Origin: Bacillota bacterium
GTDB taxonomy: Bacteria; Bacillota; JADQBR01
DNA: 63,049 nt
Direction: 5' to 3'
Assembly (NCBI GenBank): GCA_016278515.1
Contig: JADQBR010000029.1
Location: 9,634-72,682 of the forward strand
Shown: piece after piece, positions 38,190-53,206 of the stretch
How positions within the stretch are numbered: position 1 is the first letter of the stretch
Layout: each line of letters begins with the position of its first letter
Notes under the pieces: generated by a model
What the model was told of the DNA's origin: nothing
The model's database searches: none
What the model saw: only the letters and a program-made list of their open reading frames with translations
Program-made: the position numbers and the translations under genes

Positions 38190-38555
38190 GTGACTTTAAA
38201 ACGTTACATAATCGAGTTGGGAACCGGCGCAGATCTGCATGGACAGGATGTTACCAAGGCGGCCCAAAAAGCAGTAAAGGATGCAATCTCACGGAGTTGT
38301 TTATGCGGCGTTACAGAGATAATGGGTCTGCAAGACCTTAATAAAATGTTTGTCCAGGTAACTATAGCCGCACCTTATCCGGATAAAGTTGGCCATAATG
38401 AAGTTTTAGCCCAGGTTCCCTTTGGCAAAAAAACAATTGATGTTACGAAAGGAGGAATGGAAGTAGCGGGGATGTTCGTACCCCAGCTGGGCGATGCCAA
38501 GGATAGCATTGTGGTGGTCAATGCTGCAGTGGAAGTAAGTATTGAGGTAGATTGA
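38190..38555 (+). CDS. Lin0512-family protein
   Basis: A 121-residue protein of the Lin0512 family (unknown function), recognised from KRYIIELGTGADLHGQDVTKAA and NEVLAQVPFGKK and its compact length. The start is GTG 38190 after GGGAGGTG. It is the first gene behind the sigma-54 promoter and directly before acoA. Family members are often in acetoin or related operons in Firmicutes as I recall. No catalytic motif can be named. Confidence 0.65.
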   Translation: MTLKRYIIELGTGADLHGQDVTKAAQKAVKDAISRSCLCGVTEIMGLQDLNKMFVQVTIAAPYPDKVGHNEVLAQVPFGKKTIDVTKGGMEVAGMFVPQLGDAKDSIVVVNAAVEVSIEVD

Positions 38556-38611
38556 GTTTGGGCTTTCAGGTAGTGATTCTCGAGTTTACTGAAATTTAAG
38601 GAGGGGGAAAA

Positions 38612-39574
38612 ATGACGCTTTCCAAAGAAAAACTGCTGGAACTTTATAAAAAAATGATAACCATCAGATTATTTGAAGAGCACGCCGTGGAACTCTTTGC
38701 TAATGGAGAAATTCCCGGTTTTGTCCACCTGTATATTGGTGAGGAGGCAACAGCCGTAGGGGTTACTGCTATTTTGGGGGACAATGATTATATCGCCAGT
38801 ACCCACCGCGGACACGGTCACCTGATAGCTCGAGGCGGCGATGTGAAGCTGATGTACGCTGAACTTCTTGGCCGTAAAACAGGCTATTGCAAGGGAAAAG
38901 GCGGCTCCATGCATATTGCTGACATGACTTTGGGCTTTTTAGGTGCCAACGGCATAGTCGGAGCCGGGCCGCCTCTAGCAGCAGGCGCAGCATTTGCCAA
39001 TAAGTACAGGAAAGACAATGGAGTGGCGGTATGCTTCTTTGGTGACGGGGCTTCTAACCGGGGTACTCTCCATGAAGCCTTGAACTTGGCATCCATTTGG
39101 AAACTGCCCGCCGTCTTTATCTGTGAAAATAATATGTACGGTATTTCCATGAATCAGGAGTACCACCAAAATATCAAAGATGTTGCGGACCGGGCATCTG
39201 CTTACGGTATTCCCGGTATCAGCGTGGACGGAAATGACCTGTTTGCTGTTTTTGAAGCAGCTGAAGAAGCGGTCAAACGTGCACGCCAGGGAGACGGGCC
39301 TACGCTGATAGAGTGTAAAACCTATCGTTGGCGCGGTCATTTTGAAGGTGATCCTACCGTTTATCGATCTGAGCAAGAAGTTGAGACATGGAAGAAAAAG
39401 GACCCCATTCCCCGTGTTAAAAAACGTCTGTTGGATTTGGGTGTCTTGACCGAACAAGAAGACCAGGCTGTTTGGGATGAAATAAGGAAGGAAATTCAAG
39501 CAGGCATTGACTTTGCCAAATCAAGTCCTCTGCCCGATGAGTCGGAACTCTTGGAAGACGTATATTGCGATTAA
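38612..39574 (+). CDS. acoA: Acetoin dehydrogenase E1 alpha subunit (TPP-dependent)
   Basis: A 320-residue thiamine-diphosphate E1 alpha chain: HRGHGHLIARGGD, KGKGGSMHIAD, and the TPP motif GDGASNRGTLHEALNLASIWKLP ending in ENNMYGIS. With AcoB it cleaves acetoin (or a related 2-oxo compound) and passes the acyl unit to lipoyl-AcoC. The ATG follows AAGGAGGGGG. Assignment to acetoin rather than pyruvate rests on AcoR, AcoX and the butanediol dehydrogenase relic in the same locus. Confidence 0.85.
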   Translation: MTLSKEKLLELYKKMITIRLFEEHAVELFANGEIPGFVHLYIGEEATAVGVTAILGDNDYIASTHRGHGHLIARGGDVKLMYAELLGRKTGYCKGKGGSMHIADMTLGFLGANGIVGAGPPLAAGAAFANKYRKDNGVAVCFFGDGASNRGTLHEALNLASIWKLPAVFICENNMYGISMNQEYHQNIKDVADRASAYGIPGISVDGNDLFAVFEAAEEAVKRARQGDGPTLIECKTYRWRGHFEGDPTVYRSEQEVETWKKKDPIPRVKKRLLDLGVLTEQEDQAVWDEIRKEIQAGIDFAKSSPLPDESELLEDVYCD

Positions 39575-39606
39575 TTTCGGAATAAAAAGAACGGAGGGGT
39601 GAAAAT

Positions 39607-40578
39607 ATGCCGGAAATTACTTTTTTAGAAGCTATTAACAGTGCGTTAAAAGAAGAAATGCGCAAAGATCCCAACGTATTTATATTAGGTGAAGATGTGG
39701 GTATCTTTGGAGGTTGTTTTGGGGTAACCCAAGGGTTGTTGGATGAATTTGGCCCGGAGCGGGTATTAGACACTCCCATTACCGAGACAGCCATCATTGG
39801 TGCTTCAGTGGGAGCTGCCGCGGCCGGTTTAAGGCCTGTACCCGAAATAATGTTTATGGACTTTCTGGGAGTATGTTTGGATGAAGTATTCAACCAAGCC
39901 GCCAAAATGCGCTATATGTTTGGCGGAAAGGCAAAAATCCCTATGACTATTCGTACCGCATGCGGTGCCGGCCTGGGGGCTGCTGCCCAGCATTCCCAAA
40001 GTCTGGAGGCGTGGATCGCCCACATACCGGGGTTAAAGGTAGTGATGCCCTCTACTCCGGCTGACGCCAAGGGGCTGCTGATCAGTTCCATACGCGACGA
40101 CAATCCCGTTGTGTTTATCGAACACAAAATGATGTACGGAATCAGCGGTTCGGTTCCCGAGGGAGAATACTCCATTCCGCTAGGTAAAGCAGACATTAAA
40201 AGGGAAGGTAAAGATGCCACCGTAGTGGCTACCGCCATGATGGTGCATAAGGCTCTGGCTGCTGCGGAAACTCTGGCAGAGGAAGGTATCGAGATTGAAG
40301 TGGTAGATCCCCGGTGCTTGCAGCCGTTAGATAAGGAGACAATCTTGCATTCGGTAGAGAAAACCGGCAGGCTGGTGGTAATACATGAAGCAGTAAAGAT
40401 AGGCGGAGTTGGCGGAGAAATTGCCGCTATGGTGGTAGAAGAAGGATTTGATTATCTGGATGCTCCTATTAAGCGTATTGGCGCTCCTTTTACACCTATT
40501 CCGTTTGCCAGCAATTTAGAAAATGCTTACCTGCCAGGAGAAGAAGATATAGTAGCGGCTGTTAAATCTCTGGTTTAA
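39607..40578 (+). CDS. acoB: Acetoin dehydrogenase E1 beta subunit
   Basis: A 323-residue transketolase-type beta chain: FILGEDVGIFGGCFGVTQGL, RVLDTPITETAIIGASVGAA, RTACGAGLGAAAQHSQSLEA and EVVDPRCLQPLD. It forms the E1 heterotetramer with AcoA. ATG 39607 follows GGAGGGG, 32 bases after acoA. A strong stem-loop separates it from acoX. Confidence 0.87.
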   Translation: MPEITFLEAINSALKEEMRKDPNVFILGEDVGIFGGCFGVTQGLLDEFGPERVLDTPITETAIIGASVGAAAAGLRPVPEIMFMDFLGVCLDEVFNQAAKMRYMFGGKAKIPMTIRTACGAGLGAAAQHSQSLEAWIAHIPGLKVVMPSTPADAKGLLISSIRDDNPVVFIEHKMMYGISGSVPEGEYSIPLGKADIKREGKDATVVATAMMVHKALAAAETLAEEGIEIEVVDPRCLQPLDKETILHSVEKTGRLVVIHEAVKIGGVGGEIAAMVVEEGFDYLDAPIKRIGAPFTPIPFASNLENAYLPGEEDIVAAVKSLV

Positions 40579-40585
40579 AGAGTGT

Positions 40586-40628
40586 AAGGGAAAGTGGGCG
40601 GCCGAAATATGGCCGTCCGTTTCCCCTT
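40586..40628 (+). other. Intercistronic stem-loop between acoB and acoX
   Basis: AAGGGAAAGTGGGCGGCC and GGCCGTCCGTTTCCCCTT can pair over most of their length around GAAATAT. No T run follows, so mRNA stabilisation or partial attenuation is more likely than full termination. Confidence 0.6.
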
Positions 40629-40644
40629 TATAAGGGGGATGGTT

Positions 40645-41640
40645 ATGTCTACAGTAGGAATTATTGCCAATCCGGCGTCGGGAAAAGACATTAGACGGTT
40701 GGTAGCTCATGCCACCGTATTTGACAACATAGAAAAAGTTAATATTGTTAGGCGGATTTTATTGGGACTGGATGCGGTTGGGGTGGGGCAGGTTTTGTTT
40801 ATGCCCGACTATTTTGGTATTGGCCGCCAGGCTTTAGAGGGGCTTACCGGGCGATATAGTTTAAAGACGAAGGTGGACTATCTGGATATGCCCGTAACCT
40901 GGGGGCAGGAGGATTCCCTGGCTGCCGCACGATTAATGGATGACCTTAAGGTTAATTGTATTATTACTCTTGGCGGAGATGGGACCAACCGAATAGTTGC
41001 CAAAGGATGCAGGCAAGTTCCTTTGGTTCCGGTATCCACGGGGACCAACAATGTTTTTCCTGCCATGGTAGAAGGTACTACGGCCGGGCTGGCCGCAGCA
41101 CTAGTGGCAACCGGACAGATCAGTTGGGAAGCCGCCGCTGACAGAATGAAAAGGATCAGCATTGTTCTTAACGGACAAGAAATTGATCTGGCTTTAGTGG
41201 ATGCAGTGGTTTTAAGAGAACAATTTGTAGGATCCCGAGCAATTTGGGATGAAGAGAAAATAATCAAGTTTGTGGCAACCCGTGGGGAAGCCTTCAATAT
41301 AGGCATAGCATCAATCGTTGGTGGATTGTACCCGCTGTCGCCCCAAGACCCCAACGGTATAGTGGTGGAGTTGGGAAAGGGTGAAACCAAGGTTTTGGCG
41401 ACACTGGGACCTGGACTAATTATGCCAATTTCCATATCCGACTATCGAATTTTAAACTTTGACGACAAGGTGATTGTAAAAAAGGAAACCTGTGTTATCG
41501 CCGTCGATGGTGAACGGGAAATAGAGGTGGGCCCCAAGGATACGGTTGTACTTCAACTCAAGGCCGACGGTCCCCTAGTGGTTAATGTTAAAAAGACTTT
41601 AGACATGGCGGCCCGTCAGGGTTTATTCAAATTAACCTAA
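40645..41640 (+). CDS. acoX: ATP-NAD kinase-like protein AcoX
   Basis: A 331-residue protein of the AcoX/NAD kinase-like family: GIIANPASGKD at the N-terminus, the GGDGTNR motif of NAD kinase and diacylglycerol kinase folds, then PVSTGTNNVFP. AcoX is regularly placed with acetoin dehydrogenase genes; its reaction is not firmly established. ATG 40645 stands six bases after AAGGGGG. Confidence 0.82.
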   Translation: MSTVGIIANPASGKDIRRLVAHATVFDNIEKVNIVRRILLGLDAVGVGQVLFMPDYFGIGRQALEGLTGRYSLKTKVDYLDMPVTWGQEDSLAAARLMDDLKVNCIITLGGDGTNRIVAKGCRQVPLVPVSTGTNNVFPAMVEGTTAGLAAALVATGQISWEAAADRMKRISIVLNGQEIDLALVDAVVLREQFVGSRAIWDEEKIIKFVATRGEAFNIGIASIVGGLYPLSPQDPNGIVVELGKGETKVLATLGPGLIMPISISDYRILNFDDKVIVKKETCVIAVDGEREIEVGPKDTVVLQLKADGPLVVNVKKTLDMAARQGLFKLT

Positions 41641-41661
41641 TGTGTAAAGGAGGAAGAAATT

Positions 41662-43242
41662 ATGGCAGTAAAAGTACTCATGCCCAAACTTGGCCTAACA
41701 ATGAAAAAGGGGAAGATTGCCAAGTGGCTCAAAAAGGAAGGAGAAGAGGTAACTAAAGGTGAGGATTTGGTAGAAATAATAACAGAAAAGATTACTAATG
41801 TTATGGAAGCTCCGGCCAATGGTATTTTGTATAAAATTTTAGCTGAAAAAGGAAAAAATGTACCCATTATTGTTCCTATTGCCGTTATCGCCGACTCAGG
41901 AGAGGATGAAAAAGAGATTCAGCCAGTGGTAGAGGAGGCCCAAGCAGAATTAGTCGGAAGTGAAGTGGAGGAGACAAAAAAAGTAGATAAGCAGCCGGTT
42001 CAAAAAGAAGTTCAACCGGTACGGTTAGATAATGAGCGAAAGATATCTCCTAGAGCAGCCCGTTTAGCCGAAGAAAAAGAAATTGATATTGATTACATAG
42101 ACGGCACCGGTCCTAACGGCAGGGTAACCGAAAAGGACGTAAAGAATTATGTAGAAGAATTGGAAAAACAACCTGAAGAAATTCCTTTTGAAGGCATGCG
42201 GGGTATTATAGCTGAACGCATGTCTGAAAGCAGCCGGAACTCCGCCAGAGTAACTATTATGCAGGAAGTGGATTTTACCAATCTCCAGGATCTAAGAGAG
42301 CAACTTAACAACACTTTTCAAGAGCAGGGAAACGACAAGGTATCCTACACCGACCTTCTTGCGGTGGTAGTGGCTAAAGCCCTGAAGGAACATCCAATAA
42401 TGAATTCCCGGGTGTCCGCTGATAAGATAGAAATATTTGATTCCGTAAACTTGGGCATTGCAGTTGCCCTGGATGACGGTTTGATTGTACCGGTTGTTCA
42501 TCAGGCCCATAGGATGTCCTTGATCCATATTTCGGAAAAAATTAAATCAGTAGCCGAAAGAGCTCGTAGCGGCGAATTAGATTCTGAGGAACTACAAGGC
42601 GGCACTTTTACCATAACTAATCTTGGTATGTTTGGCGCGGAAGGCTTTACGCCCATTATCAATCCACCGGAAACCGCAATTTTGGGTATTGGCACCATCG
42701 TGGAAAAACCGGTGTTGAAAGAAGGAACGCTGGAAAGACGGCCCCGTATGACCTTGAGTCTGTCCATTGACCATCGTGCCGTGGACGGTGCACCGGCGGC
42801 CCGGTTTTTAAGCAGGGTTAGGGAACTGTTGGAAAATCCTCATCCCCTATTCCGCATGGAGGAGCCCAATATTAGTCGCCCGTTGGCAGCCGGAGGCGGT
42901 AAAGACCCGCACAAACTGATGCAGGATTTTGTCGGCGGGATAGAATGGCTTAGTGAAGAAGCTCCCGACATGGCAGTAGGTTTTAATTCGTTGATGGCTC
43001 CGGCTTTTGCGGAAGGAGAGCTATCAACAAAGGACAAAGAGTTAATAGCTATAGCTTTGTCGGTCTATATCAAATGCGAATACTGTATTTCCCATCATGT
43101 GCATAATGCTATAGCAGCAGGAGCCGAGGCCGATGAAGTTCTGGAAGCTTCCGGCGTAGCCATAGCTTTTGGCGGCGGACCGGCCATGGCTTATACGGTG
43201 ACACTGGTCAAGGAGTGTATTAAGGCATTTTCCGCTGACTAA
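41662..43242 (+). CDS. acoC: Dihydrolipoamide acetyltransferase E2 fused to an AhpD-like domain
   Basis: A 526-residue fusion. Residues 1-76 are a lipoyl domain (lipoyl Lys43 in ITEKITN); about 125-160 is the E1/E3-binding peripheral domain (ISPRAARLAEE...GPNGRVTEKDV); about 175-405 is the acyltransferase with the catalytic SIDHRAVDG near 370. The last 100 residues form a carboxymuconolactone decarboxylase/AhpD-like domain with the thiol pair C-E-Y-C near 472-475 followed by ISHHVHNAIAAGA. In mycobacteria AhpD takes electrons from a lipoyl E2 to serve peroxiredoxin; here both parts are one chain. No separate E3 gene (lpdA) is in the window although the E3-binding domain is present. Confidence 0.87.
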   Translation: MAVKVLMPKLGLTMKKGKIAKWLKKEGEEVTKGEDLVEIITEKITNVMEAPANGILYKILAEKGKNVPIIVPIAVIADSGEDEKEIQPVVEEAQAELVGSEVEETKKVDKQPVQKEVQPVRLDNERKISPRAARLAEEKEIDIDYIDGTGPNGRVTEKDVKNYVEELEKQPEEIPFEGMRGIIAERMSESSRNSARVTIMQEVDFTNLQDLREQLNNTFQEQGNDKVSYTDLLAVVVAKALKEHPIMNSRVSADKIEIFDSVNLGIAVALDDGLIVPVVHQAHRMSLIHISEKIKSVAERARSGELDSEELQGGTFTITNLGMFGAEGFTPIINPPETAILGIGTIVEKPVLKEGTLERRPRMTLSLSIDHRAVDGAPAARFLSRVRELLENPHPLFRMEEPNISRPLAAGGGKDPHKLMQDFVGGIEWLSEEAPDMAVGFNSLMAPAFAEGELSTKDKELIAIALSVYIKCEYCISHHVHNAIAAGAEADEVLEASGVAIAFGGGPAMAYTVTLVKECIKAFSAD

Positions 43243-43261
43243 ATTTGGGGAGGCATCTATC

Positions 43262-44860
43262 ATGACTGACACTTGGCGGCTGCTGGATACTGGTATTTGC
43301 AGTGCTGCTGAAAATATGGCGCTGGATGATACGATACTGACTGCCCGTGCTGAGAATTATGTGCCCGATACCCTGCGTTTCTTACAGTTTAGTCCCCGGT
43401 GCGTTTTAATTGGCTACCATCAGGCTGTGGATTTGGAAGTCAGAGAGGATTACTGCCGGCAGCAGGGAATTGAGATAAACCGGCGCATTACCGGAGGCGG
43501 TGCACTGTACTGGGATGAGAAACAGTTGGGTTGGGAGATTTTTGCGCAAAAAAACATGATATCGAAATTGAGGAATGTTGAACAGGTCTATTCTGCACTT
43601 AGTCGGGGTTTAATAGAGGGATTGCGGAATCTGGGAATTGGTGCTCAATTTCGGCCCCATAACGATATTGAAGTAAATGGTCGTAAAATTTCCGGCATGG
43701 GCGGCACAGAAAAAGGTAATGCTTTTCTCTTTCAGGGTACTCTGCTGGTGGATTTTGATATAGAGACCATGTTTCACGCTCTCCGCATTCCCGCGGAAAA
43801 GCTCAAGGATAAAGAGATAGCTTCTGCCAGGGAAAGGATTACCTCGGTAGCCCGGGAACTAGGATACGTACCGCCCGTAGATAAGATAAAAGATGCTCTG
43901 GCCGCGGGATTCAGCCGGGCACTTGACATAGATGTACGAGCCGGAGACCTGCTTCCTAAAGAAAAAAACTTCTTTAAATCAGCAGCCAAGAAGTTTACCT
44001 CGCCCCGGTGGTTGTACGGGGTAAAAAAGTCATCATTGCATGGAGAAGAATTGCGCCATATTTACAAAGCACCTGGTGGCATGATCAGAGTTTCCCTGAT
44101 GGTTGACATTGCCGGAGGTTACATCAAATACGCTTTGATTAGCGGTGATTTTTTCGCTTATCCCGGCAGGGCTATATATGATTTAGAAGCGGTGCTGAAA
44201 AATTGCCCTTGTCAAGGCAACCGGTTGGAGCAGGTGGTACAGGAATTTTTTGCTCAGCATCAAGTGGAGATACCTGGAGTTACCTGGCAGGATATCTGTA
44301 CTGCAATACGCGGTGCCCTCACCAGGGCTCAACTGTTGGAAAACGGGTTTTCTGCGCCGGAAGCCAATGCCGTTACCATGGTGAATGGCGGTGCTATCCA
44401 AGCTGCTGAGGGAATTCCCCTGCTTTTGCCTTATTGCGCCAAGCTGACTTCCTGTAGTTGGCGCAAGCAGGATGGATGCGCTGAATGCGGCAAATGTACC
44501 GTGGGCAAGGCATACCAACTGGCCCAAGATGCGGGTATGATACCCATCAGCATAAACAGTTTTGAACACCTGAAGGCGGTTTTAAGCCGGTACAAGGAAC
44601 AAGGGCGGCCAGGTTTTGTCGGGTGCTGCTGTGAGCCGTTTTATGCAAAGCACCAACAGGATTTTTTGGAAATTGGACTGCCGGGACTGCTGATAGATAT
44701 AGATAACAAAACCTGTTACGAACTGGGACAGTTAAATGAAGCTAAGGAAGGTAAATTCGAACGCCAGACCGATTTAAAAGTTCCTCTGCTAATAAAGATG
44801 ATAAGTAAGTTAGCTAATCCACCTGCAGGGAATTTAAGTACCATGACGGCGGTCAAATGA
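43262..44860 (+). CDS. Lipoate-protein ligase fused to a DUF116-like cysteine-rich domain
   Basis: A 532-residue protein. Residues 1-250 are an LplA/BPL-type ligase (NRRITGGGALYWDEKQ, HNDIEVNGRKISGMGG with catalytic Lys), continued by an accessory lipoate-ligase domain to about 345. The C-terminal about 150 residues carry Cys motifs C-x5-C...GCAECGKC and later VGCCCEP, a pattern I attribute to DUF116. The linked Cys residues suggest a metal or Fe-S site. This may tie ligation to a redox or radical step, or deliver sulfur; this is inference. ATG 43262 follows GGGGAGG. The gene lies between acoC and lipB in the same direction. Confidence 0.75.
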   Translation: MTDTWRLLDTGICSAAENMALDDTILTARAENYVPDTLRFLQFSPRCVLIGYHQAVDLEVREDYCRQQGIEINRRITGGGALYWDEKQLGWEIFAQKNMISKLRNVEQVYSALSRGLIEGLRNLGIGAQFRPHNDIEVNGRKISGMGGTEKGNAFLFQGTLLVDFDIETMFHALRIPAEKLKDKEIASARERITSVARELGYVPPVDKIKDALAAGFSRALDIDVRAGDLLPKEKNFFKSAAKKFTSPRWLYGVKKSSLHGEELRHIYKAPGGMIRVSLMVDIAGGYIKYALISGDFFAYPGRAIYDLEAVLKNCPCQGNRLEQVVQEFFAQHQVEIPGVTWQDICTAIRGALTRAQLLENGFSAPEANAVTMVNGGAIQAAEGIPLLLPYCAKLTSCSWRKQDGCAECGKCTVGKAYQLAQDAGMIPISINSFEHLKAVLSRYKEQGRPGFVGCCCEPFYAKHQQDFLEIGLPGLLIDIDNKTCYELGQLNEAKEGKFERQTDLKVPLLIKMISKLANPPAGNLSTMTAVK

Positions 44861-44888: not shown

Positions 44889-45587
44889 ATGACTGCGCAG
44901 GGCTATTTGCTTGATCTTGGTTTTACCGATTACACGGAGGCCTATATGATCCAAAAAACACTGCAGCGAATGCGGATAGCAGGGGTTATCCGGGATACCC
45001 TTATCCTGGTGGAACACCCTCCGGTTCTCACCATTGGGCGAAACGGCGGACGTGAAAATATCCTGGCCGCTGAAGAAATGCTGGAAAGGCAGGGTATTTC
45101 CATTTGTGAGGTGGAACGTGGTGGTGATATTACTTACCATGGTCCGGGGCAGTTGGTGGGGTACCCAATTGTTGATTTAAATATGAGGGGCAGGGATCTG
45201 CATCTCTTCGTACGCTGCTTAGAGGAAGTGGTTATTAGCACCCTTGGCTGTTACGATATTACAGCGAATCGAAAAGACGGCTATCCCGGCATATGGGTTG
45301 GCAGCCGGAAGATTGCCGCTCTGGGGGTAGCAGTAAAAAAGTGGGTCACCATGCACGGGTTTTCTCTTAACATAGCCTGCAGTCTGGACCATTTCCAGCT
45401 GATTGTGCCCTGTGGTATTTCAGGTTACGGCGTCACTTCAATGGCGGAGGTTACCTGCCGGGAACAAGATTTTGAAGCTGTATCCCGGACGGTTCGCGAT
45501 AAATTTGCAGACATTTTTCAAGTGGAGTTGGCACCGGTTTTCTTGGATGAACTCTACCAACGAAAGACACCAACCACTAATAACTAA
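44889..45587 (+). CDS. lipB: Octanoyl-[carrier protein] transferase
   Basis: A 232-residue octanoyltransferase: VERGGDITYHGPGQLVGYPI, and GIWVGSRKIAALGVAVKKWV with the catalytic Lys, plus a PCGISGYGVTSM end including the catalytic Cys. It transfers octanoate from acyl carrier protein to lipoyl domains for LipA to sulfurate. The start is ATG 44889 after AGAGAGGAACGCC. It sits 28 bases after the ligase gene and 17 before lipA. Confidence 0.9.
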   Translation: MTAQGYLLDLGFTDYTEAYMIQKTLQRMRIAGVIRDTLILVEHPPVLTIGRNGGRENILAAEEMLERQGISICEVERGGDITYHGPGQLVGYPIVDLNMRGRDLHLFVRCLEEVVISTLGCYDITANRKDGYPGIWVGSRKIAALGVAVKKWVTMHGFSLNIACSLDHFQLIVPCGISGYGVTSMAEVTCREQDFEAVSRTVRDKFADIFQVELAPVFLDELYQRKTPTTNN

Positions 45588-45604: not shown

Positions 45605-46519
45605 ATGGATAAGGAAAGGTTTTTAACCGGAAAGAAAAACTGCAGGGAGCAAGACCCCGGGGACAGACCTCCTTGGTTAAAAGTGCCTGTTCCTGAAGCA
45701 GATGCTTTAGCTTCCATGGAAGAACTGTTACGTAGAACCGGGTTATACACCGTCTGCCAAGGGGCGTTATGCCCCAATATGGGGGAATGTTTCGGTAAGG
45801 GAACCGCCACTTTTATGATTTTGGGTGACACATGCACACGAAACTGCCGTTTTTGTTCCGTAATAAAGGGAAAGCCGGAGTCACCCAAAATGGATGAGCC
45901 AGGCAAACTGGCCGAAGCAGTACTGCATTTGGGCTTAAAACACGTGGTAATAACTTCGGTGACCCGAGATGACTTAGAAGACGGAGGAGCCAGTCATTTT
46001 GCAGATACTGTTTTCGCTGTACACGGACTCTCTCCCGAGAGTACGGTGGAAGTACTTATCCCTGATTTTCAGGGGTGTGCTGGAGCGTTGGAGACGGTAA
46101 GTGAGTCCGGACCGGAAATTATCGGGCATAATGTAGAGACTGTACCCAGATTGTATTCCCGGGTACGTCCCCGGGCTAATTACCGGCGTTCGTTGGCGGT
46201 GTTGGCTCAGGTCAAGAACATTAATCCCCATATCAGGACAAAATCTGGGATAATGCTGGGGCTGGGAGAGACGGAAACGGAAGTAATAGATGTATTGAAA
46301 GACCTGCGTAATGCGGGGTGTGACATCGTTACTTTGGGGCAGTATCTGCAGCCAACGGGAGACCAACTCTCGGTATACCGGTATATTTCACCCGAGGCCT
46401 TCAGGGTATTTGGCAGAATTGCCAGGGAGTTGGGATTCTCCCATGTGGTATCTTTACCTTTAGCAAGAAGCTCATACCATGCTGAAGAAGCGGTCAAAAT
46501 TAGCTGCGGGAGGTGTTGA
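45605..46519 (+). CDS. lipA: Lipoyl synthase (radical SAM)
   Basis: A 304-residue canonical LipA: the auxiliary-cluster motif CQGALCPNMGEC (CX4CX5C), the radical SAM motif CTRNCRFC (CX3CX2C), and the C-terminal RSSYHAEEA with the Ser ligand. It inserts two sulfurs into octanoyl chains. It is downstream of lipB; a classical endogenous LipB-LipA pathway is therefore complete. Confidence 0.92.
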   Translation: MDKERFLTGKKNCREQDPGDRPPWLKVPVPEADALASMEELLRRTGLYTVCQGALCPNMGECFGKGTATFMILGDTCTRNCRFCSVIKGKPESPKMDEPGKLAEAVLHLGLKHVVITSVTRDDLEDGGASHFADTVFAVHGLSPESTVEVLIPDFQGCAGALETVSESGPEIIGHNVETVPRLYSRVRPRANYRRSLAVLAQVKNINPHIRTKSGIMLGLGETETEVIDVLKDLRNAGCDIVTLGQYLQPTGDQLSVYRYISPEAFRVFGRIARELGFSHVVSLPLARSSYHAEEAVKISCGRC

Positions 46520-46524
46520 AAAAG

Positions 46525-46962
46525 ATGCCAGTTATTGAAGGGTATGAAATGCCCGATGAACTTTATTATACCGAGGACCATGCCTGGTTAAAAGTAGAGG
46601 AAGACAATAAAGTAAGGATTGGATTAAGCGATTTTGCACAAAAATTAGCAGGGGAAATTTCCTTTGTCAAGGTGCCTAAAGTGGGAAAAAAAGCCGTCCC
46701 CGGTAAATTGTTGTTTTCCTTGCAGTCGGGAAAATGGGCCGGTAAAGTGGTGGTTCCCGTAGCTGGGACAATAGTAGAAGCCAACAAAGATTTACTATAT
46801 GAGCCCCAGTTAATCAACGAGAACTGCTACGGGACAGGATGGGTGGCAGTAATAAAAGCCGCCGGTCTTGCTGAAGATTTGGCTGGACTGAAGACAGGAG
46901 AGGCAGCTCACCGGTGGCTGCGGCAAGAAGCGGTCCGGTTAGAGTCAGAGCAGAATAACTAG
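46525..46962 (+). CDS. GcvH-like lipoyl carrier protein 1 (LbpA-type)
   Basis: A 145-residue H-protein fold: LYYTEDHAWLKVEED at the N-terminus, GLSDFAQKLAGEISFVKVP, and the lipoyl-lysine hairpin LQSGKWAGKVVVPVAGTI with Lys70 in QSGKW rather than the ESVKA of glycine-cleavage H proteins. ATG 46525 is chosen; GGGAGGTG stands upstream and overlaps the lipA stop. No P- or T-protein genes are near, so it is not a normal glycine-cleavage component; lipoate-binding proteins of this type work with Hdr-like complexes in sulfur oxidisers. The next two genes encode a GlcD- and an HdrD/GlcF-like pair. Confidence 0.8.
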   Translation: MPVIEGYEMPDELYYTEDHAWLKVEEDNKVRIGLSDFAQKLAGEISFVKVPKVGKKAVPGKLLFSLQSGKWAGKVVVPVAGTIVEANKDLLYEPQLINENCYGTGWVAVIKAAGLAEDLAGLKTGEAAHRWLRQEAVRLESEQNN

Positions 46963-46986
46963 CACTGTAGGAAGGGGAGGACAGCC

Positions 46987-48447
46987 TTGCTGGACCAGAT
47001 AAAGCAGGATTTTGGGCCGCGGTATACCGAGTCCTATTTTGAAAGACAGTTTTATACCAGGGATTTAGCTTATATTCCTAATTTCTTAGTTTCACTGGTG
47101 GCTAAGCCGCTGCCGGAAATGGTAGTAAGGCCGGTTAATGCTGAAGAAGTAAGCCGTATTGTTACTTTTGCATCGAAAAATAAGACGGCGGTAACACCCA
47201 GAGCAGGCGGTTCTACTGCAGTGGGTGGCTGTGTGCCCGCAAATGGCGGTGTTGTAATTGATTTAAACGGTTTAAAAGGGGTTGTAGAGCTTAACCTGGA
47301 CCAGGAAAAAGTAACAGTGCTGCCGGCAACTACCTGGGCGGAGCTGGACAGTTACCTGCGCCAACAAGGTTACTGTGTCTGCTCATATCCGTCAAGCATT
47401 AATGCCGCTACCGTTGGCGGCTGGCTGTCCGGCGGTGGATACGGCATGGGCAGTATCCGGTTTGGTCCTATGGTAGAGCAGGTTAGCTCCCTGGAAGTGG
47501 TTCTTCCTTCGGGAGAAATAAAGCGTCTTAACCGGACAACAGACCCTCCCTTGCAGTGGTTTGCTGGCAGTGAAGGTACCTTAGGCATTATTACTCAGGT
47601 GGAAATGAAAATAAGGCCTATACCGGAAAGCATGGGTCACTACCTGATTGCCGCGGAAAATTCTAAAGCCCTGCTGCAGGCAGCACGGGAATGTGTCAGT
47701 GAGCTGCCGGATATTATTCATAACATGCACTTTAACAGCAAGCTACTTAATGATTCTTTAAAAAGAAAAGGATTAACAGAAGAAAAACTGGGAGATTATC
47801 ACAGCCTAGCCATTGATTTGGAAGAAAAAAATTCCTCTGGGCTGGACGAAACGGAAGATTTTCTGCAAAAGATCGTGAGTAAATACGGCCTTGCTTTCAT
47901 GGACCAAGAAATTGCCATGGAAGAGTGGGAGACGAGATTCCAGTCTCTAAAGATTATGCGGGTTTATCCTTGCCTGTTGGGTGCTGAAGTACTGCTGCCG
48001 GTTGCTTCTTTTCATCGTTACGTGGAACAGGTAGAGGCATTGGGGCGCCGGGCCGGGGTAAAGATGCTTACCTACGGTCACGTAGTGTCCCGAGAGGGGG
48101 CTGTGGTCATGACCCTGTATCCTTCCGACGAGAGGCAGACATGGCGGTACCTTTGTGACACCAGTTTAATGAGGGAAATTTATAGTATTGGCCGGAGGCT
48201 GGATGCAATACCATACTTGACCGGTTTTTGGAACACTCCCTACGTAAAAGATATTCACTCCCGGAAAAAACTGCGGGAGTTAAAGAGACGCAAGAACTTA
48301 TTGGATCCCGGTGACATTATGAATTCCGGAAAAGTTTACCGGCCGCCGCTGCTGCTGCAGCCAAATCTATATCATTTAGGCATGAAAACATTGGGGCTGG
48401 TGCGGCGAATTTGGCCAAAGGGGGTAGAGAGCCATGACCGGCAGTAA
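46987..48447 (+). CDS. FAD-linked 2-hydroxyacid oxidoreductase (GlcD-like)
   Basis: A 486-residue flavoprotein of the VAO/FAD-linked oxidase family: FAD-binding domain with AGGSTAVGGCVPANGGVVIDL and GWLSGGGYGMGSIRFG, and a C-terminal FAD_oxidase_C-like domain (RRKNLLDPGDIMNSGKVY). Glycolate, D-lactate or similar 2-hydroxyacids are usual substrates, the true one is unknown. TTG 46987 follows GGGGAGG. Its end overlaps the Fe-S partner gene by 14 bases, so the pair is translationally coupled as in glcDF or D-lactate dehydrogenase operons. Confidence 0.82.
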   Translation: MLDQIKQDFGPRYTESYFERQFYTRDLAYIPNFLVSLVAKPLPEMVVRPVNAEEVSRIVTFASKNKTAVTPRAGGSTAVGGCVPANGGVVIDLNGLKGVVELNLDQEKVTVLPATTWAELDSYLRQQGYCVCSYPSSINAATVGGWLSGGGYGMGSIRFGPMVEQVSSLEVVLPSGEIKRLNRTTDPPLQWFAGSEGTLGIITQVEMKIRPIPESMGHYLIAAENSKALLQAARECVSELPDIIHNMHFNSKLLNDSLKRKGLTEEKLGDYHSLAIDLEEKNSSGLDETEDFLQKIVSKYGLAFMDQEIAMEEWETRFQSLKIMRVYPCLLGAEVLLPVASFHRYVEQVEALGRRAGVKMLTYGHVVSREGAVVMTLYPSDERQTWRYLCDTSLMREIYSIGRRLDAIPYLTGFWNTPYVKDIHSRKKLRELKRRKNLLDPGDIMNSGKVYRPPLLLQPNLYHLGMKTLGLVRRIWPKGVESHDRQ

Positions 48448-49609
48448 GCAGGCGTTTCGCGGCTTGGCGGAAGAAGCAAGAATCTGTGCCGGCTGCGGTT
48501 CCTGCCGTTCCGTTTGTCCCGTCTATGCCGAGATAGGCTGGGAATCCGCAGCGCCCCGCGGTAAGATAACACTGGGCAAAAAGATATTTGCCGGCGGTAA
48601 GGAGGACTTTCTTTCCGAGCCCTATATCAATCGGGTTTTTCAGTGCACCCTATGCGCCCGGTGTGCTGAAGTTTGCCCGGCCCGGATAGATACACGGGAG
48701 CTGTGGCAAAAAATGCGGCAAGCCATAACGGCCCGGGGCAGAGCACCGGCAGTGTTTGAACAAATGGCGAAAAACATAGAAAGCAACAAAAACATCTCCG
48801 CCAACACCAATGACGGTCGTTTGGATTGGGCAGATGACCTGGATGACCCTGACTGTATAGAAGCGTTAGAATCCAATGCAGTGGGCTATTTTGTCGGCTG
48901 CGTAGCATCTTTTTATCCCATGGTGGCGGAAATTCCCTTGAGTTTCGTCAGTATTATGGAGAAAAATGGTATCAAGGTCACGGTGCTGGGAGAAAAGGAA
49001 TGGTGCTGCGGCTTCCCGCTGCTGGGTGCCGGTCGTAACGGTGAAGCTCTGTCCCTTGCGGAACACAATGCAGCAAAAATCAAAGAGCTGGGGATAAAAA
49101 CCCTGGTTACCACCTGTCCCTCCTGTTACCACACCTTTAAGCACCATTATCCAAAGGTCTTAGGTAAGCATCTGGACTTTGAGCTGGTGCATGCAGCCCA
49201 GTATCTCAGCTGGCTCATTCAAGAAGAGCGGATAGATTGGTCGGAATACGAGGAACTCGACCAAGTGGTAACTTATCATGACCCCTGTGATTTAGGGCGC
49301 AACAGCGGAATTTATGATGCCCCCAGGAACATTTTAGAGAATATTCCCGGAGTAACCTTAGTAGAAATGGAGCACAACCGGGAAAATGCTCTCTGCTGCG
49401 GCGGGGGAGGAAATTTGCAGGCTGTTGATGCCAGTTTGACTGCCGCTATTGCAGAGAGGCGTATAGAAGAAGCCCTTAATACCGGGGCTACAATACTGAT
49501 CAGTGCCTGCCAGCAGTGTGTTCAGGTTCTCACTGACGCTGCCCGGCGTAAAAAGGCCCCCATACAAGTAATGGATATTAACCAATTACTCTGGATGGGA
49601 TGGGAATAG
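48434..49609 (+). CDS. Iron-sulfur CCG-domain oxidoreductase subunit (GlcF/HdrD-like)
   Basis: A 391-residue protein with two N-terminal [4Fe-4S] motifs (CAGCGSCRSVCPVY; CTLCARCAEVCPA) and two CCG domains, each with a full Cys set (GCVASF...CCGFP...CPSC; PCDLGRN...CCGGGGN...CQQC). Complete CCG domains bind the noncubane clusters which reduce heterodisulfides in HdrB/HdrD. It is coupled to the GlcD-like gene and is flanked on both sides by lipoyl carrier genes. Electron transfer between the flavin and a lipoyl disulfide is the hypothesis this layout suggests. Confidence 0.85.
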   Translation: MTGSKQAFRGLAEEARICAGCGSCRSVCPVYAEIGWESAAPRGKITLGKKIFAGGKEDFLSEPYINRVFQCTLCARCAEVCPARIDTRELWQKMRQAITARGRAPAVFEQMAKNIESNKNISANTNDGRLDWADDLDDPDCIEALESNAVGYFVGCVASFYPMVAEIPLSFVSIMEKNGIKVTVLGEKEWCCGFPLLGAGRNGEALSLAEHNAAKIKELGIKTLVTTCPSCYHTFKHHYPKVLGKHLDFELVHAAQYLSWLIQEERIDWSEYEELDQVVTYHDPCDLGRNSGIYDAPRNILENIPGVTLVEMEHNRENALCCGGGGNLQAVDASLTAAIAERRIEEALNTGATILISACQQCVQVLTDAARRKKAPIQVMDINQLLWMGWE

Positions 49610-49636
49610 GTTGACTTAGGATAGGAGTGAACAGAG

Positions 49637-50068
49637 TTGAAATTAGGGGAATGGTCTTTTTGTAAGGACCTATTGTACCATAAAGAGCATCTTTGGCTGG
49701 AGGTTAAAGACTCCATCGCCCGTGTAGGTCTAACCGACTACGCCCAGGATACCAGAGGTGATGTCCTCTATCTGGGATTACCGAAAATCGGCCTTCGAGT
49801 CCAACAGGGAGATACCGTGGCTACCATTGAAACTGGTAAATGGGTAGGCAGACTCATTGCCCCGGTCACAGGTACTATAGTAGGCATTAATAGCCAACTA
49901 TCAAGAAACCCTCAGCTAATAAATCAGGATCCGTACGGTGAAGGTTGGATTTTTCAACTGCGCATTTCGAACCAAACAGAACTATCCTCTCTATTGAAAT
50001 GTGATGAATTTTATCATTGGCTGGAGCACACGTTAGCAAACCAAGTAGATTGTGAATTGGACAGGTGA
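49637..50068 (+). CDS. GcvH-like lipoyl carrier protein 2 (LbpA-type)
   Basis: A 143-residue H-protein fold: LLYHKEHLWLEVKDSIARVG, TDYAQDTRGDVLYLGLP and the lipoyl hairpin IETGKWVGRLIAPVTGTI with Lys68. Like carrier 1 it has GKW-x-G in place of the ESVKA of true GcvH. TTG 49637 stands seven bases after AGGAG. It follows the CCG protein and overlaps the region just before a LipT-like gene, the context described for LbpA with the LipS1/LipS2 pathway. Confidence 0.8.
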   Translation: MKLGEWSFCKDLLYHKEHLWLEVKDSIARVGLTDYAQDTRGDVLYLGLPKIGLRVQQGDTVATIETGKWVGRLIAPVTGTIVGINSQLSRNPQLINQDPYGEGWIFQLRISNQTELSSLLKCDEFYHWLEHTLANQVDCELDR

Positions 50069-50072
50069 TACT

Positions 50073-51155
50073 ATGGACACTATTCAAGCGGATGTACTGG
50101 TAGTTGGCGCCGGACCTGCAGGCTCCATAGCAGCCCGTCGGGCAGCCCGAAATGGGGCTAAGGTAATCTTAATCGAACAAAAGACTTCTGTTGGTATTCC
50201 CGTTCAGTGCGGCGAATACGTGCCTGGTTCTATTGGGGAGTTTTCCGGCAGTTATGCAGAGAGTATTGTTCAAGAAATCAAAGGGATTAAAACCTATATT
50301 AACTGCCGGCCGGCGGTATATACTAGGGCACCTGGCTACATTATTCAACGGCAGATATTTGACGGAAATCTGGCCCGGGAAGCTCAGGAGCAGGGAGTTA
50401 ATCTGGTAACGGGCGCTCGGCTTGAAGGAAGAGACGACAGTGGAGTAATAGTAAAACTTGCAAAAGAAACAGTCAAAGTGTTTCCAAGGATAATTATCGG
50501 TGCCGACGGGCCCCGATCTTTGGCAGCTGGGTGGATAAACGACTCCGGACCTTTGCTGGCGGCAGCCGCCCAGCATACTGTAAAATTAAGAAAACCGCTG
50601 GAGGATGCTGAGGTTTTCTTGGATGAAGCTTATCCCGGCGGATACGCTTGGTTATTCCCCAAAGGGAAGGCAGGCAATCTAGGAGTAGCCGTTGACCCCA
50701 AATTGGGAGGGGATGTTGGCAAAGCATTGCGGCAGTTTACGAAATTCATCAGCAAAACCGGAATACTCTCAAGTGCCGAGCCCGTAGATACTATATCTGG
50801 ATTCATACCTATCTCCGGACCCCTGCCCAATGTTCAGAAGAATAATATTCTCCTTGTGGGCGATGCGGGAGGGTTTACCCACCCCATTACCGGCGGCGGT
50901 ATCCTGCATGCACTAATTACCGGACAGCTGGCCGGAAAAATATCTGCCCTAGCTCTTAGTGAAGATGATCTGGAAATATTAAAAAATTACGGATCAGCTT
51001 GGGCAGCCGTTCTGGGGGAAACCATGATAAGGGGCACAAGAAAAAGACGCTATCTTGAAACAGTCCGGCCAAATCGGCTAGGCGATGACTTTGCCGCTGT
51101 TGCAAGAAAAACATGGATTGCCTTTCCGGAATACTACCAGGGTGAGGCAAAATAA
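50073..51155 (+). CDS. FAD-dependent oxidoreductase, geranylgeranyl reductase family (LipT-like)
   Basis: A 360-residue flavoprotein: N-terminal dinucleotide motif VLVVGAGPAGSIAARRAA, VPVQCGEYVPG-type segment (IPVQCGEYVPGSIG), IIGADGPRS, and the second FAD motif NILLVGDAGGFTHPITGGGI. Such proteins are grouped with geranylgeranyl reductases. In lipoate clusters with LipS1/LipS2 a protein of this type is called LipT and is proposed to donate electrons. ATG 50073 comes five bases after AGGTG. Its neighbours (lipoyl carrier before, two radical SAM genes after) support that reading. Confidence 0.75.
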   Translation: MDTIQADVLVVGAGPAGSIAARRAARNGAKVILIEQKTSVGIPVQCGEYVPGSIGEFSGSYAESIVQEIKGIKTYINCRPAVYTRAPGYIIQRQIFDGNLAREAQEQGVNLVTGARLEGRDDSGVIVKLAKETVKVFPRIIIGADGPRSLAAGWINDSGPLLAAAAQHTVKLRKPLEDAEVFLDEAYPGGYAWLFPKGKAGNLGVAVDPKLGGDVGKALRQFTKFISKTGILSSAEPVDTISGFIPISGPLPNVQKNNILLVGDAGGFTHPITGGGILHALITGQLAGKISALALSEDDLEILKNYGSAWAAVLGETMIRGTRKRRYLETVRPNRLGDDFAAVARKTWIAFPEYYQGEAK

Positions 51156-51191
51156 TCTTTAATGATGTAGTAGATAAAGGTGGGAAAATGT

Positions 51192-52250
51192 ATGATAAAA
51201 TGTTCGGAAAGCCCCAAGTTTACCAAGACAAGTTTGGCCGCCGCCATCACTTTAAAACTAAAAAAAGGAAGCTTTTACCGAGAAGCAAGATTAAACTGCT
51301 TAAACCTGCTGCTGAGTTATGATAGCGGCTGTGTTGGGCGCTGTGCCTACTGTGGATTAGCCAACAACAGGGTTATATCTCCCGAGGAAAACACTTTTAT
51401 TCGAGTCAAATGGCCAACCTATGACGTAGACGAGATACTGCAGCGGGCAAAAAGAGATGAAGATAAACTAAAACGAGTGTGTGTGGCCATGGTTACCCAC
51501 CCCCAAGCACTGGCTGACTGTAATGAAATCATTAGTCGTTTTAAACATAATACAAGTTTATTAATTAGTGCCCTGGTGACGCCCACTATGATAAAAAATA
51601 AGAGGCAGATTAAACAATTAAAGGAAAGCGGAGCGGACAGTTTGGGAATAGCTGTGGACACGGCAACCGGGGAACTTTTCGGCAAATTGCGTGGCTCCGG
51701 TGTGGAGGGACCCCACAGTTGGAGACATTATTGGCAGGTGATAAAGGATGCGGTGGCAGTATTCGGGCCCGGTAATGTCAGTGTTCATCTCATAGTGGGC
51801 TTGGGAGAAACAGAAAAGGAAATGGTAGAAACTATTCACAGGGTAAACCGACAAAAGGCAGTGCCGCACCTTTTTGCTTTCTTTCCCGAAAAAGGCAGTG
51901 CTTTAGGTACTCTCAGCCAGCCGCCCATAGGCCAATACCGGCGCATCCAGCTTGCCCGTCACCTGATAGTTAGCAGGTTAATCAGTCCGCAGCAAATGCA
52001 GTTTAACGAGGACGGCAAGATTGTTGATTATGGTACCGACATAAAGTCTGCGGTGGAGACGGGACTGCCCTTTATGACCTCTGGGTGTCCCGATGCACAG
52101 GGTGAGACAGCCTGCAACCGCCCATACGGCAACGAACGTCCCGGAGAACTGCTGTATAACTACCCTTTTAGACCGAATAATGACGATGTCAAGTTAATTA
52201 AAAGTCAGTTATGGCAGGGGTTAAAGGAGGAACAGTATCAATCATGGTGA
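51192..52250 (+). CDS. Radical SAM protein, LipS1/LipS2-type lipoyl synthase subunit (first)
   Basis: A 352-residue radical SAM protein with CVGRCAYC (C47, C51, C54) and a barrel. Additional Cys lie at the N-terminus and near the end (SGCPDAQGETACNRPYG), possible ligands for a second cluster. ATG 51192 is preferred over GTG 51180, which overlaps the AAAGGTGG site. It overlaps the next radical SAM gene by 7 bases. Paired radical SAM proteins behind a LipT-like flavoprotein and an LbpA-like carrier match the alternative lipoyl synthase pair LipS1/LipS2 known from archaea and sulfur oxidisers; which of the two this is I cannot say. Confidence 0.72.
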   Translation: MIKCSESPKFTKTSLAAAITLKLKKGSFYREARLNCLNLLLSYDSGCVGRCAYCGLANNRVISPEENTFIRVKWPTYDVDEILQRAKRDEDKLKRVCVAMVTHPQALADCNEIISRFKHNTSLLISALVTPTMIKNKRQIKQLKESGADSLGIAVDTATGELFGKLRGSGVEGPHSWRHYWQVIKDAVAVFGPGNVSVHLIVGLGETEKEMVETIHRVNRQKAVPHLFAFFPEKGSALGTLSQPPIGQYRRIQLARHLIVSRLISPQQMQFNEDGKIVDYGTDIKSAVETGLPFMTSGCPDAQGETACNRPYGNERPGELLYNYPFRPNNDDVKLIKSQLWQGLKEEQYQSW

Positions 52251-53206
52251 TAAGTGAGACTTACTTTCGGGAAGAATTATCAGCCCTCCTAGACCGCGCC
52301 TGGGAGTTAAGACAGAGAAACTTTTCCCCGGAAATTACCTTTGCCGTCCCCGGGGGAAGAAAATATGATACGGTAGTTTTTACTAACCGCCAAGAACGCT
52401 TTTTAAATGTAAGTATCACAGACAAAACATGTTCCCTACTTTGTGACCACTGCCGCGGGCGCATGCTAGCCGGCATGACGCCGGTAACCGATCCCCGGCA
52501 ATTGCTTGCTTTGGTAGAACGACTGATGGGAAAGGGGGCCCGCGGGCTGCTGATTAGCGGCGGCTGCGACCGGGAAGGCAGTGTCCCTTTGGATAATTTT
52601 ATTCCGGCCATAGCCGATATTACAGCAACGGGATTAAAGGTTATCGTACATACCGGTTTGGTTGCCAGAGATCAAGCAAAAAGATTAAAGGATGCGGGAG
52701 TTGACCAGGTTCTTTTTGATATCATCGGCGATGAAGATACTATAAGACAGGTTTATCACCTGGATAAAGTTCCTGAGGACTATTATCGTTGCTTGGAGAG
52801 TCTTTTAGAAGTAGGACTGGATGTGGCACCCCACATTGTAATAGGGCTGCACTACGGAAAAATCAGAGGAGAACACGCAGTCTTACGGGAAATAGCACAA
52901 ATCGGCGTTGACCGTTTAGTACTTGTAGCACTGCGAAATTTGTCTGGCACACCCATGGCCGGCCTAAGGCCGGTAGATCGGCGGGAAGTAGCGCGTATAG
53001 CAGCCGTAGCCAGATTGATATGCCCTGAAACCTATATATCTTTTGGCTGTGCCAGACCATTTGGAAAGGAAAAAATAGTGCTGGAGCAGCATCTCATTGA
53101 TGCAGGTATAAACGCTCTTGCTTACCCGGAAGAAGAGACATTAACCTATGTCCAAAAACGAGGGCTGGTTTTCAAATTTGAAGAGCAATGCTGCAGCATG
53201 GTCTAG
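52244..53206 (+). CDS. Radical SAM protein, LipS1/LipS2-type lipoyl synthase subunit (second)
   Basis: A 320-residue radical SAM protein with CSLLCDHC (C63, C67, C70), ISGGCDREGSVPL and a C-terminal CARPFGKE, plus EEQCC near the end. It overlaps the first radical SAM gene by 7 bases; AAAGGAGG lies 13 bases upstream of ATG 52244, a slightly long spacing. It closes the lipoate cluster. The pairing with the first is the main evidence for LipS1/LipS2-type sulfur insertion; a biotin-synthase-like function is less likely in this context. Confidence 0.7.
   Translation: MVISETYFREELSALLDRAWELRQRNFSPEITFAVPGGRKYDTVVFTNRQERFLNVSITDKTCSLLCDHCRGRMLAGMTPVTDPRQLLALVERLMGKGARGLLISGGCDREGSVPLDNFIPAIADITATGLKVIVHTGLVARDQAKRLKDAGVDQVLFDIIGDEDTIRQVYHLDKVPEDYYRCLESLLEVGLDVAPHIVIGLHYGKIRGEHAVLREIAQIGVDRLVLVALRNLSGTPMAGLRPVDRREVARIAAVARLICPETYISFGCARPFGKEKIVLEQHLIDAGINALAYPEEETLTYVQKRGLVFKFEEQCCSMV

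Follow-up and report, generated by a model that had tools for sequence, protein, structure and literature searches.

An acetoin dehydrogenase in a group of anaerobic bacteria seems to have exchanged its NAD-linked subunit for an AhpD-type thiol-relay domain

In the textbook picture, lipoyl-dependent dehydrogenases are built of E1, E2 and E3, and it is E3 (dihydrolipoamide dehydrogenase, encoded by lpdA) that returns the electrons to NAD. Here, an acetoin dehydrogenase (aco) cluster without a linked E3 is described in a stretch of 63,049 nucleotides of a Bacillota bacterium (assembly GCA_016278515.1, contig JADQBR010000029.1), the whole of which is hereafter designated as the window; the source genome has 4.27 Mb in 167 contigs. 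At positions 38190-53206, 15 plus-strand genes are packed with intergenic gaps of -40 to +56 bases, in the order lin0512, acoA, acoB, acoX, acoC, lplA-DUF116, lipB, lipA, lbp1, glcD-like, hdrD-like, lbp2, lipT-like, lipS2-like and lipS1-like (Table 1). The parts of an acetoin dehydrogenase present are E1 alpha/beta, E2 and AcoX, with the gene of an AcoR-type regulator upstream, and the run further encodes lipoate-assembly enzymes, two H-protein-like lipoyl carriers (Lbp) and a GlcD-like and HdrD-like pair. Profile matches in Pfam and NCBIfam bore out this gene content, as proposed by a first-pass annotation of the DNA letters, together with its claim that no gcvT or gcvP occurs among the 15 genes. 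The same annotation had reported that there was no E3. This held for the cluster, with no E3 found in the window by HMM search, but not for the genome, in which a genome-wide check for lpdA located an E3 gene beside glycine-cleavage (gcv) genes, ruling out its absence from the organism.

Table 1. Features of the acetoin dehydrogenase run and its upstream flank, with window coordinates.
Feature	Position	Strand	Evidence or remark
AcoR-type sigma-54-dependent activator (GAF, PAS, Sigma54_activat, Fis HTH)	34192..36192	+	PF00158 4.4e-70, PF01590, PF02954
Lipoate-protein ligase-like, opposite strand to run	36708..37763	-	PF21948 7.4e-36
Sigma-54-like -24/-12 element TGGCATTGAAGTTGCA	38135..38150	+	Pattern match, 1 mismatch; 39 bases ahead of lin0512 GTG start
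Lin0512-family protein, GTG start at 38190	38190..38555	+	PF09585 5.7e-42; TIGR02058 above cut-off
AcoA, E1 alpha (TPP)	38612..39574	+	TIGR03182 395 bits, just over cut-off; aco synteny
AcoB, E1 beta	39607..40578	+	NF006667 411 bits, above cut-off
AcoX, NAD-kinase-like	40594..41640	+	PF01513 1.7e-10; no NCBIfam match; true start may be ~50 bases further on
AcoC, E2 with C-terminal AhpD-type CMD	41662..43242	+	PF00364, PF02817, PF00198, PF02627; TIGR00778
LplA-type lipoate ligase fused to DUF116	43262..44860	+	PF21948 2.8e-50, PF10437, PF01976
LipB octanoyltransferase	44889..45587	+	TIGR00214 above cut-off
LipA lipoyl synthase	45605..46519	+	TIGR00510 above cut-off
Lbp1, H-protein-like lipoyl carrier, motif QSGKWAGK	46513..46962	+	PF01597 5.4e-33; alignment
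GlcD-like FAD protein	46987..48447	+	PF01565, PF02913; TIGR00387 117 bits, far under cut-off 567.9
HdrD-like Fe-S protein	48434..49609	+	PF02754 two stretches, PF13183; two 4Fe-4S ferredoxin-type motifs; CCG C at 156, 285
Lbp2, second lipoyl carrier, motif ETGKWVGR	49637..50068	+	PF01597 8.6e-37; alignment
LipT-like FAD oxidoreductase (geranylgeranyl-reductase family)	50052..51155	+	TIGR02032 203.6 bits, above cut-off
LipS2-like radical SAM lipoyl synthase subunit	51180..52250	+	NF053743 241.7 bits, cut-off 270
LipS1-like radical SAM lipoyl synthase subunit	52211..53206	+	NF053742 225.9 bits, cut-off 230

A feature absent from the first-pass annotation lies at the C-terminal end of AcoC. Following the lipoyl, E3-binding and acetyltransferase core domains, this protein has a CMD/AhpD domain (PF02627, 4.4e-18, residues 435-517) within a region of residues about 414-526 that displays the motif E-x11-CEYCISHH, scores above the cut-off of TIGR00778 (ahpD core) and has AhpD 5dik as its nearest solved relative. 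Judged by these matches, the tail of AcoC is of the AhpD type. In an alignment of 22 CMDs, comprising 21 sequences from aco loci and one from locus L019 (see below), CxxCxxxH is conserved in 22/22 and the full E-x11-CxxC-x3-H, which we take to be the AhpD redox signature, in 21/22. Whether directly after acoC or fused to it, the CMD occupies the place that lpdA has in other clusters.

The distribution of both arrangements was surveyed in one phylum by searching for aco clusters with AcoX, a query biased towards neither CMD nor E3. A first sample, an even draw of 398 genomes, yielded 31 genomes with AcoX matches: 10 had lpdA by the aco genes and no CMD, 10 had a CMD and no linked lpdA, seven had neither or were cut off, and four did not represent aco clusters. 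A second sample was drawn from 22 genomes in the class of G389, 63 in the order of G188, 20 in the class of G071 and 113 in that of G177. It contributed 12 new genomes having AcoX; one locus ends early, and the 11 reaching past acoC all have a CMD and no linked lpdA. Among 40 aco loci from 39 genomes, checked by HMM within the stretch read for each locus, 22 (belonging to 21 genomes) have only a CMD, 10 only an E3, none both and eight neither, L105 and L143 ending before acoC and L112 just after it. The AcoX-like loci L113, L115, L116 and L117, with no other aco genes, were excluded, and L035, which is on the same contig as L023, was counted once. In a midpoint-rooted tree of acoA+acoB+acoX from 34 loci (L023, L038, L138 and L110 left out for missing data; L105 and L143 not entered), the CMD type forms one clade with a support of 0.89. 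Because of this single clade, the CMD/E3 swap is, on the tree, one ancestral exchange kept across eleven family labels. A small DUF6506 protein (about 100 aa) is found in 16 of the 22 CMD-type loci (L036-L039, L093, L094, L097, L139, L141, L142 and L144-L149) and, among the other aco loci, in L100 and L107; no match was found in the window.

The E3 of the source genome is located at G000:C84:21932-23308 (TIGR01350, 557 bits for a cut-off of 408.8). Its neighbourhood includes gcvT-gcvH-gcvPA-gcvPB, a second LipS1/LipS2 pair, all over NCBIfam cut-offs, and an AcoR-like regulator (42% identical). This second pair (L017, on G000:C84, 75-1942) is 34-35% identical to that of the window and stands immediately next to gcvPB-gcvPA-gcvH-gcvT, an arrangement that looks like one synthase per lipoyl target. 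Genome-wide searches with TIGR01350 in the 21 CMD-type genomes revealed an E3 over cut-off in 18, including the source genome, and none in three, namely G476, a single contig of 4,855,529 bases that is presumably Desulfotomaculum gibsoniae Groll, G342 (99% complete) and G450 (98%). The best partial matches in G476 and G342 are devoid of the redox motif GGxCxxxxGC[IVL]P, which was present in 12/12 true E3 loci tested as a control. G450 carries a stand-alone CMD, two Lbp, GlcD, HdrD and lipoate genes, and these Lbp are its only GCV_H-family proteins. Six E3 places were read in five CMD-type genomes: those beside gcv genes were in G071 (1/1), G188 (1/1), G294 (1/4) and G108 (1/2), while in G002 one of two E3 genes is beside gcv genes and the other is not.

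Lbp occur within the run in 12 of the 22 CMD loci versus 0 of the 18 other aco loci, some of which end early. No Lbp, GlcD or HdrD was found in these 18 (L105, L112, L143 and L095 being short). In this count, L038, which has GlcD and HdrD, was scored as lacking Lbp since it yielded no Lbp frame, and L138 ends after lipB. All 25 Lbp in the alignment keep the lipoyl-site lysine in [STA][GA]KW[AV]G, 22 of them by a narrower pattern. The genome's own GcvH, unlike the Lbp, carries ESVKAVSD, ESVKA being the lipoyl-site motif of the glycine cleavage H protein. Lbp2 is nevertheless near the GcvH family cut-offs (NF002270, 132.6 for a cut-off of 117; TIGR00527, 114.8 for a cut-off of 115.85). The context is not that of GcvH, with no gcv genes in the run, nor, by the genes read, is an sHdr gene set found beside the Lbp, which are instead surrounded by genes for aco, GlcD, HdrD and lipoate assembly. 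In six loci with no Lbp or GlcD (L093, L094, L145, L147, L148 and L149), a UbiE-like methyltransferase comes after a long lipA ORF, which in L093 and L094 is a LipB-LipA fusion. At the edge of L093 there is also a weak CCG-like match, and the flanks of L144 and L149 contain partial HdrA-like matches.

The GlcD-HdrD pair combines a FAD protein with an Fe-S protein having two CCG motifs of five cysteines each, which are complete in 18/18 HdrD homologues. For the Fe-S protein of the window, NCBIfam gives TfrB, LdhH and GlpC as best matches, none of them reaching its cut-off. The motifs GDGNxH and GEHG, substrate-site motifs of D-2-hydroxyacid dehydrogenases, occur in 0/19 GlcD homologues; solved glycolate oxidase shows GDGNLH, and the D-lactate dehydrogenase chain shows GDGNFA. 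Because these motifs are missing throughout, a 2-hydroxyacid substrate is unlikely for the GlcD-like proteins. The oxidation of 2-hydroxyacids was rejected as their main role, and the first-pass proposal that electrons from such acids feed lipoyl disulfides is thereby weakened. A GlcD search of the phylum (E up to 1e-60) detected the gene in 15 of the 398 genomes, at 16 places, in 11 of which an Lbp adjoins GlcD-HdrD. Since five GlcD-HdrD-Lbp loci (L019, L020, L021, L041 and L042) have no aco genes in the stretch read, the unit is, by its gene context, a module of its own; an acetoin-specific role was rejected on the same grounds. When the GlcD-HdrD tree is rooted on L045, a clade with a support of 1.0 contains the aco-free and the other aco-linked copies, the window group lying outside it, and the other aco-linked copies on their own have a support of 0.24; this topology allows either two associations with aco or losses. 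In L097, a CMD and an lbp are followed by HdrC-like, HdrB-like and 930-residue HdrA-like genes (the last with ferredoxin, FAD and FlpD domains) in the GlcD-HdrD slot. Because HdrABC-like genes stand in for GlcD-HdrD there, the gene order suggests that lipoyl carrier and CCG site are constant and the outlet variable. Elsewhere, GlcD-HdrD follows a molybdopterin-type oxidoreductase and ferredoxin-like proteins, the latter identified by eye, in L019 (11012-16797) and L040 (10554-16170), with an Lbp in L019 only. L019 also encodes a protein with an aldehyde:ferredoxin oxidoreductase N-terminal domain and a stand-alone CMD near the Lbp, with no acoABXC gene. In L139 (G429, 3-2060), the aco cluster has HdrA-, HdrB- and HdrC-like genes upstream of it.

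Based on these observations, the acetoin complex of this group of anaerobes appears to have traded its NAD-linked subunit for a thiol-relay domain, which suggests an unrecognised electron route. We consider it fairly probable that the AhpD-type domain replaced E3 as the oxidant of dihydrolipoyl-E2 and that, in this lineage, it became coupled to an Lbp/Hdr-like electron outlet. The electron-transfer steps and their order are proposed from the domains, the motifs, the linkage, the exclusivity of CMD and linked E3, and the CMD-type genomes having no E3 over cut-off. E1 and E2 would cleave acetoin and leave the E2 arm as dihydrolipoyl, from which the CxxC of the tethered AhpD-type domain would accept two electrons; these would next reduce the lipoyl disulfide of Lbp1/Lbp2. 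Oxidation of the dihydrolipoyl-Lbp would fall to the two CCG sites of HdrD, and the electrons would travel through the ferredoxin-type clusters to the FAD of GlcD and on to an acceptor, for which menaquinone and a partner at ferredoxin level are candidates, instead of to NAD through E3 as usual. Both E2 and the carriers would be lipoylated by the lipoate genes of the run. A lipoyl circuit of this kind had been put forward in the first-pass annotation and is supported in part, in a modified form. The linkage on which it was built, that of Lbp, GlcD and HdrD to an aco cluster lacking E3, is no local coincidence: it does recur by synteny in other families of the phylum, and three genomes of the same type have no detected E3, but the constant element is the CMD, Lbp being present in only 12/22 loci.

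A broader version of this scheme is more tentative, and we rate its chances as slightly short of even. It holds that an E3-free catabolic chain runs from E2 through an AhpD-type relay to free lipoyl carriers serving exchangeable Hdr-type enzymes, so that acetoin oxidation would bypass NAD, possibly with flavin-based electron confurcation. The role of Lbp would resemble that of the heterodisulfide of methanogens, with GlcD-HdrD as the enzyme in most loci and an HdrABC-like set with FlpD in L097. Also counted in favour of the first scheme is one genome carrying the cluster (L037), which we infer to be that of Thermacetogenium phaeum, a species able to use acetoin and 2,3-butanediol for growth that contains menaquinone-7 and shows no sign of cytochromes (PMC3551663). 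Its growth on acetoin is an indirect pointer to acetoin as the substrate of the complex. Menaquinone is a possible acceptor because this species possesses it without signs of cytochromes.

Several known systems share elements with the window cluster. The acetoin dehydrogenase of Pelobacter carbinolicus (AcoA, AcoB, AcoC and AcoL), which converts acetoin to acetyl-CoA and acetaldehyde, has AcoA, AcoB and AcoC in common with it (excerpt of PMC3022650). In contrast to P. carbinolicus, the window cluster has no AcoL (E3), an AhpD-type domain on AcoC, and lipoyl carriers with GlcD-HdrD in the same run. In mycobacteria, AhpD is reported to be reduced by a lipoylated E2 (PMC8945050, citing Bryk 2002), so that in the AhpD/E2/Lpd/AhpC chain a CxxC protein of the AhpD type takes electrons from lipoylated E2, as the window CMD might do by analogy. 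As excerpted from PMC8945050, the mycobacterial chain is fed by NADH and has AhpC as its sink, whereas in the window there is no linked lpd, and a crude motif scan found no peroxiredoxin. Furthermore, the CMD of the window type is fused to E2 or follows it, and the electrons would leave catabolic turnover itself. The sHdr-LbpA system with sLpl(AB)-LipS1/S2 resembles the window in having H-protein-like carriers beside an Hdr-like enzyme and LipS1/LipS2/LipT (excerpt of PMC10332631), but the window has an HdrD-like protein with a GlcD-like FAD partner and is linked to an acetoin dehydrogenase. According to the same excerpt, which does not mention acetoin, Sporomusa has lipS1/S2 in linkage with canonical lipoate genes. 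Oxidoreductases of the GlcD/GlcF, TfrB and HdrD types likewise consist of a FAD_binding_4 protein followed by a CCG Fe-S protein; the window pair differs in having none of the 2-hydroxyacid motifs, and a lipoyl carrier gene adjoins such pairs in 11/16 places of the phylum search. A Sphingobium plasmid carries an AhpD-like CMD gene that has mahS on one side and a six-gene acetoin cluster on the other; the excerpt of PMC9676059 gives it as context of the metaldehyde gene and draws no link to E3 or lipoyl groups. The literature searched, mostly without subscription papers, contained nothing linking CMD/AhpD, acetoin and lipoamide as here, and nothing tying an HdrD/GlcD-like pair to lipoate carriers or to acetoin dehydrogenase; such absence is weak evidence of novelty. 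If true, the proposed exchange would mean that the E1-E2-E3 rule is broken by a lineage of eleven family labels, with three genomes having no detected E3, and that AhpD-type proteins act in energy metabolism rather than in defence against peroxides. It would also provide an anaerobic test system for protein-bound lipoate as a general two-electron currency of Hdr-type enzymes.

A number of observations weigh against replacement of E3 by the AhpD-type domain. The source genome has a complete E3 in its own glycine-cleavage cluster and 17 further CMD-type genomes have an E3, which makes a shared E3 possible. Five loci (L095, L101, L102, L104 and L109) extend past acoC with neither CMD nor E3, and therefore a missing linked E3 by itself proves little. 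The exclusivity of CMD and linked E3 is, on the tree, the reflection of a single exchange, so that the Fisher value of 0.0009 (25 loci of the first sample) overstates it. The four centres of the second sample were all CMD-type genomes; this sample shows retention of the trait and is no independent repeat. AcoC also retains its E3-binding domain. Such a domain can bind E1 too. With respect to the outlet, no Lbp or GlcD appears in the stretch read at eight CMD loci (L093, L094 and L144-L149), two of the three genomes with no detected E3 being among their sources, and the genomes G342 and G476 gave no GCV_H-family match. Therefore, Lbp cannot be the acceptor from the CMD everywhere. AlphaFold models had low confidence (mean pLDDT of 50 for HdrD and 38 for AcoC), probably because each was built on an alignment of only three sequences, and were not used. 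Finally, the acceptor of acetoin cleavage in T. phaeum was assigned as NAD (excerpt of PMC3551663).

Some of these points would also fit an ordinary complex that shares the E3 of glycine cleavage, in which the AhpD-type domain is an antioxidant add-on using E2 electrons on peroxides and Lbp, GlcD and HdrD are a separate system drawn in by the need for lipoate. Complexes are known to share E3 (excerpt of PMC6067878), and with an E3 elsewhere in 18 of the 21 CMD-type genomes, five aco loci with neither CMD nor E3, and GlcD-HdrD-Lbp without aco in five loci, this explanation has several observations on its side. We nevertheless regard it as rather unlikely: no E3 over cut-off was found in three CMD-type genomes, of which one is a single contig, the CMD stands at the E3 position in 22 loci and is absent from the 10 that retain E3, and the stretches read at CMD loci contain no peroxiredoxin motif, as judged by a crude regular expression with no positive control.

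A second alternative has GlcD-HdrD working in the opposite direction, oxidising a substrate and reducing the lipoyl disulfides of Lbp, either with a 2-hydroxyacid, the second option of the first-pass annotation, or as the reductant for lipoyl assembly. The closest characterised GlcD relatives do include 2-hydroxyacid dehydrogenases, but GDGNxH/GEHG are missing in all 19 homologues; lipoate genes lie near many GlcD-HdrD units, but LipT has already been proposed as the electron donor for LipS1/S2 (excerpt of PMC10332631). The aco-free copies adjoin quite different genes, such as the aldehyde:ferredoxin oxidoreductase-like protein of L019, which also counts for this alternative. Dihydrolipoyl has a potential of -0.29 V (excerpt of PMC6067878). 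By such potentials it is a better donor than lactate, and, given the missing motifs as well, the reversed direction appears improbable. Least probable is that the carriers hold a carbon or sulfur intermediate instead of electrons, as LbpA probably does in sHdr sulfur oxidation, and that the Hdr-like pair acts on this intermediate; LbpA is essential to the Hdr-like system of sulfur oxidisers (excerpts of PMC6067878 and PMC10332631), but by the genes read, the partners here are GlcD-HdrD and not an sHdr set, no sulfur-oxidation family having been searched for.

Regarding expression, the run is likely co-transcribed, because its genes are tightly packed, and the -24/-12 element ahead of lin0512 is a candidate promoter, although the window contains eight matches to the sigma-54 pattern for 7.3 expected, a number not above chance. 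In a consensus scan of 36000-54100, terminator-like sites numbered 16 where 20.4 were expected and promoter-like sites 30 where 26.6 were expected, totals that are likewise not above chance. Three plus-strand terminator-like sites fall within the run, all in the acoA/acoX frames; the match at 40617 may fall between acoB and acoX if AcoX starts later. The first-pass annotation had considered that a promoter and a terminator splitting the aco part from the lip/redox part would speak against its circuit. The consensus scan found no terminator-like site at this boundary, but a plus-strand promoter-like match is present near it, at 43235, and the two parts may thus be transcribed separately.

The lipoate genes and the flank of the run vary among loci. 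The LipS1-like and LipS2-like proteins of the run have their best family match in these families, yet score 4 and 28 bits below the curated cut-offs, and the name LipT-like was assigned by analogy from the position beside lipS1/lipS2, as in the excerpt of PMC10332631. An LplA-type ligase with a DUF116 extension, matched by PF01976 in the window protein, is also found in L018, L020, L041, L097 and L023, the 836-residue LplA-type ORF of L023 additionally containing LipA. A Lin0512-family gene is located near the head of most aco clusters read. By synteny, homologues of the lipoate-protein ligase encoded on the opposite strand upstream of the window run are located within the run in other families (L036, L037, L038 and L139-L142). 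Just past acoR, a 91-residue ORF at window positions 36395-36670 is 65% identical to part of a 352-residue alcohol dehydrogenase in the L037 aco cluster and, by this similarity, looks like the remnant of a gene of the butanediol-dehydrogenase type.

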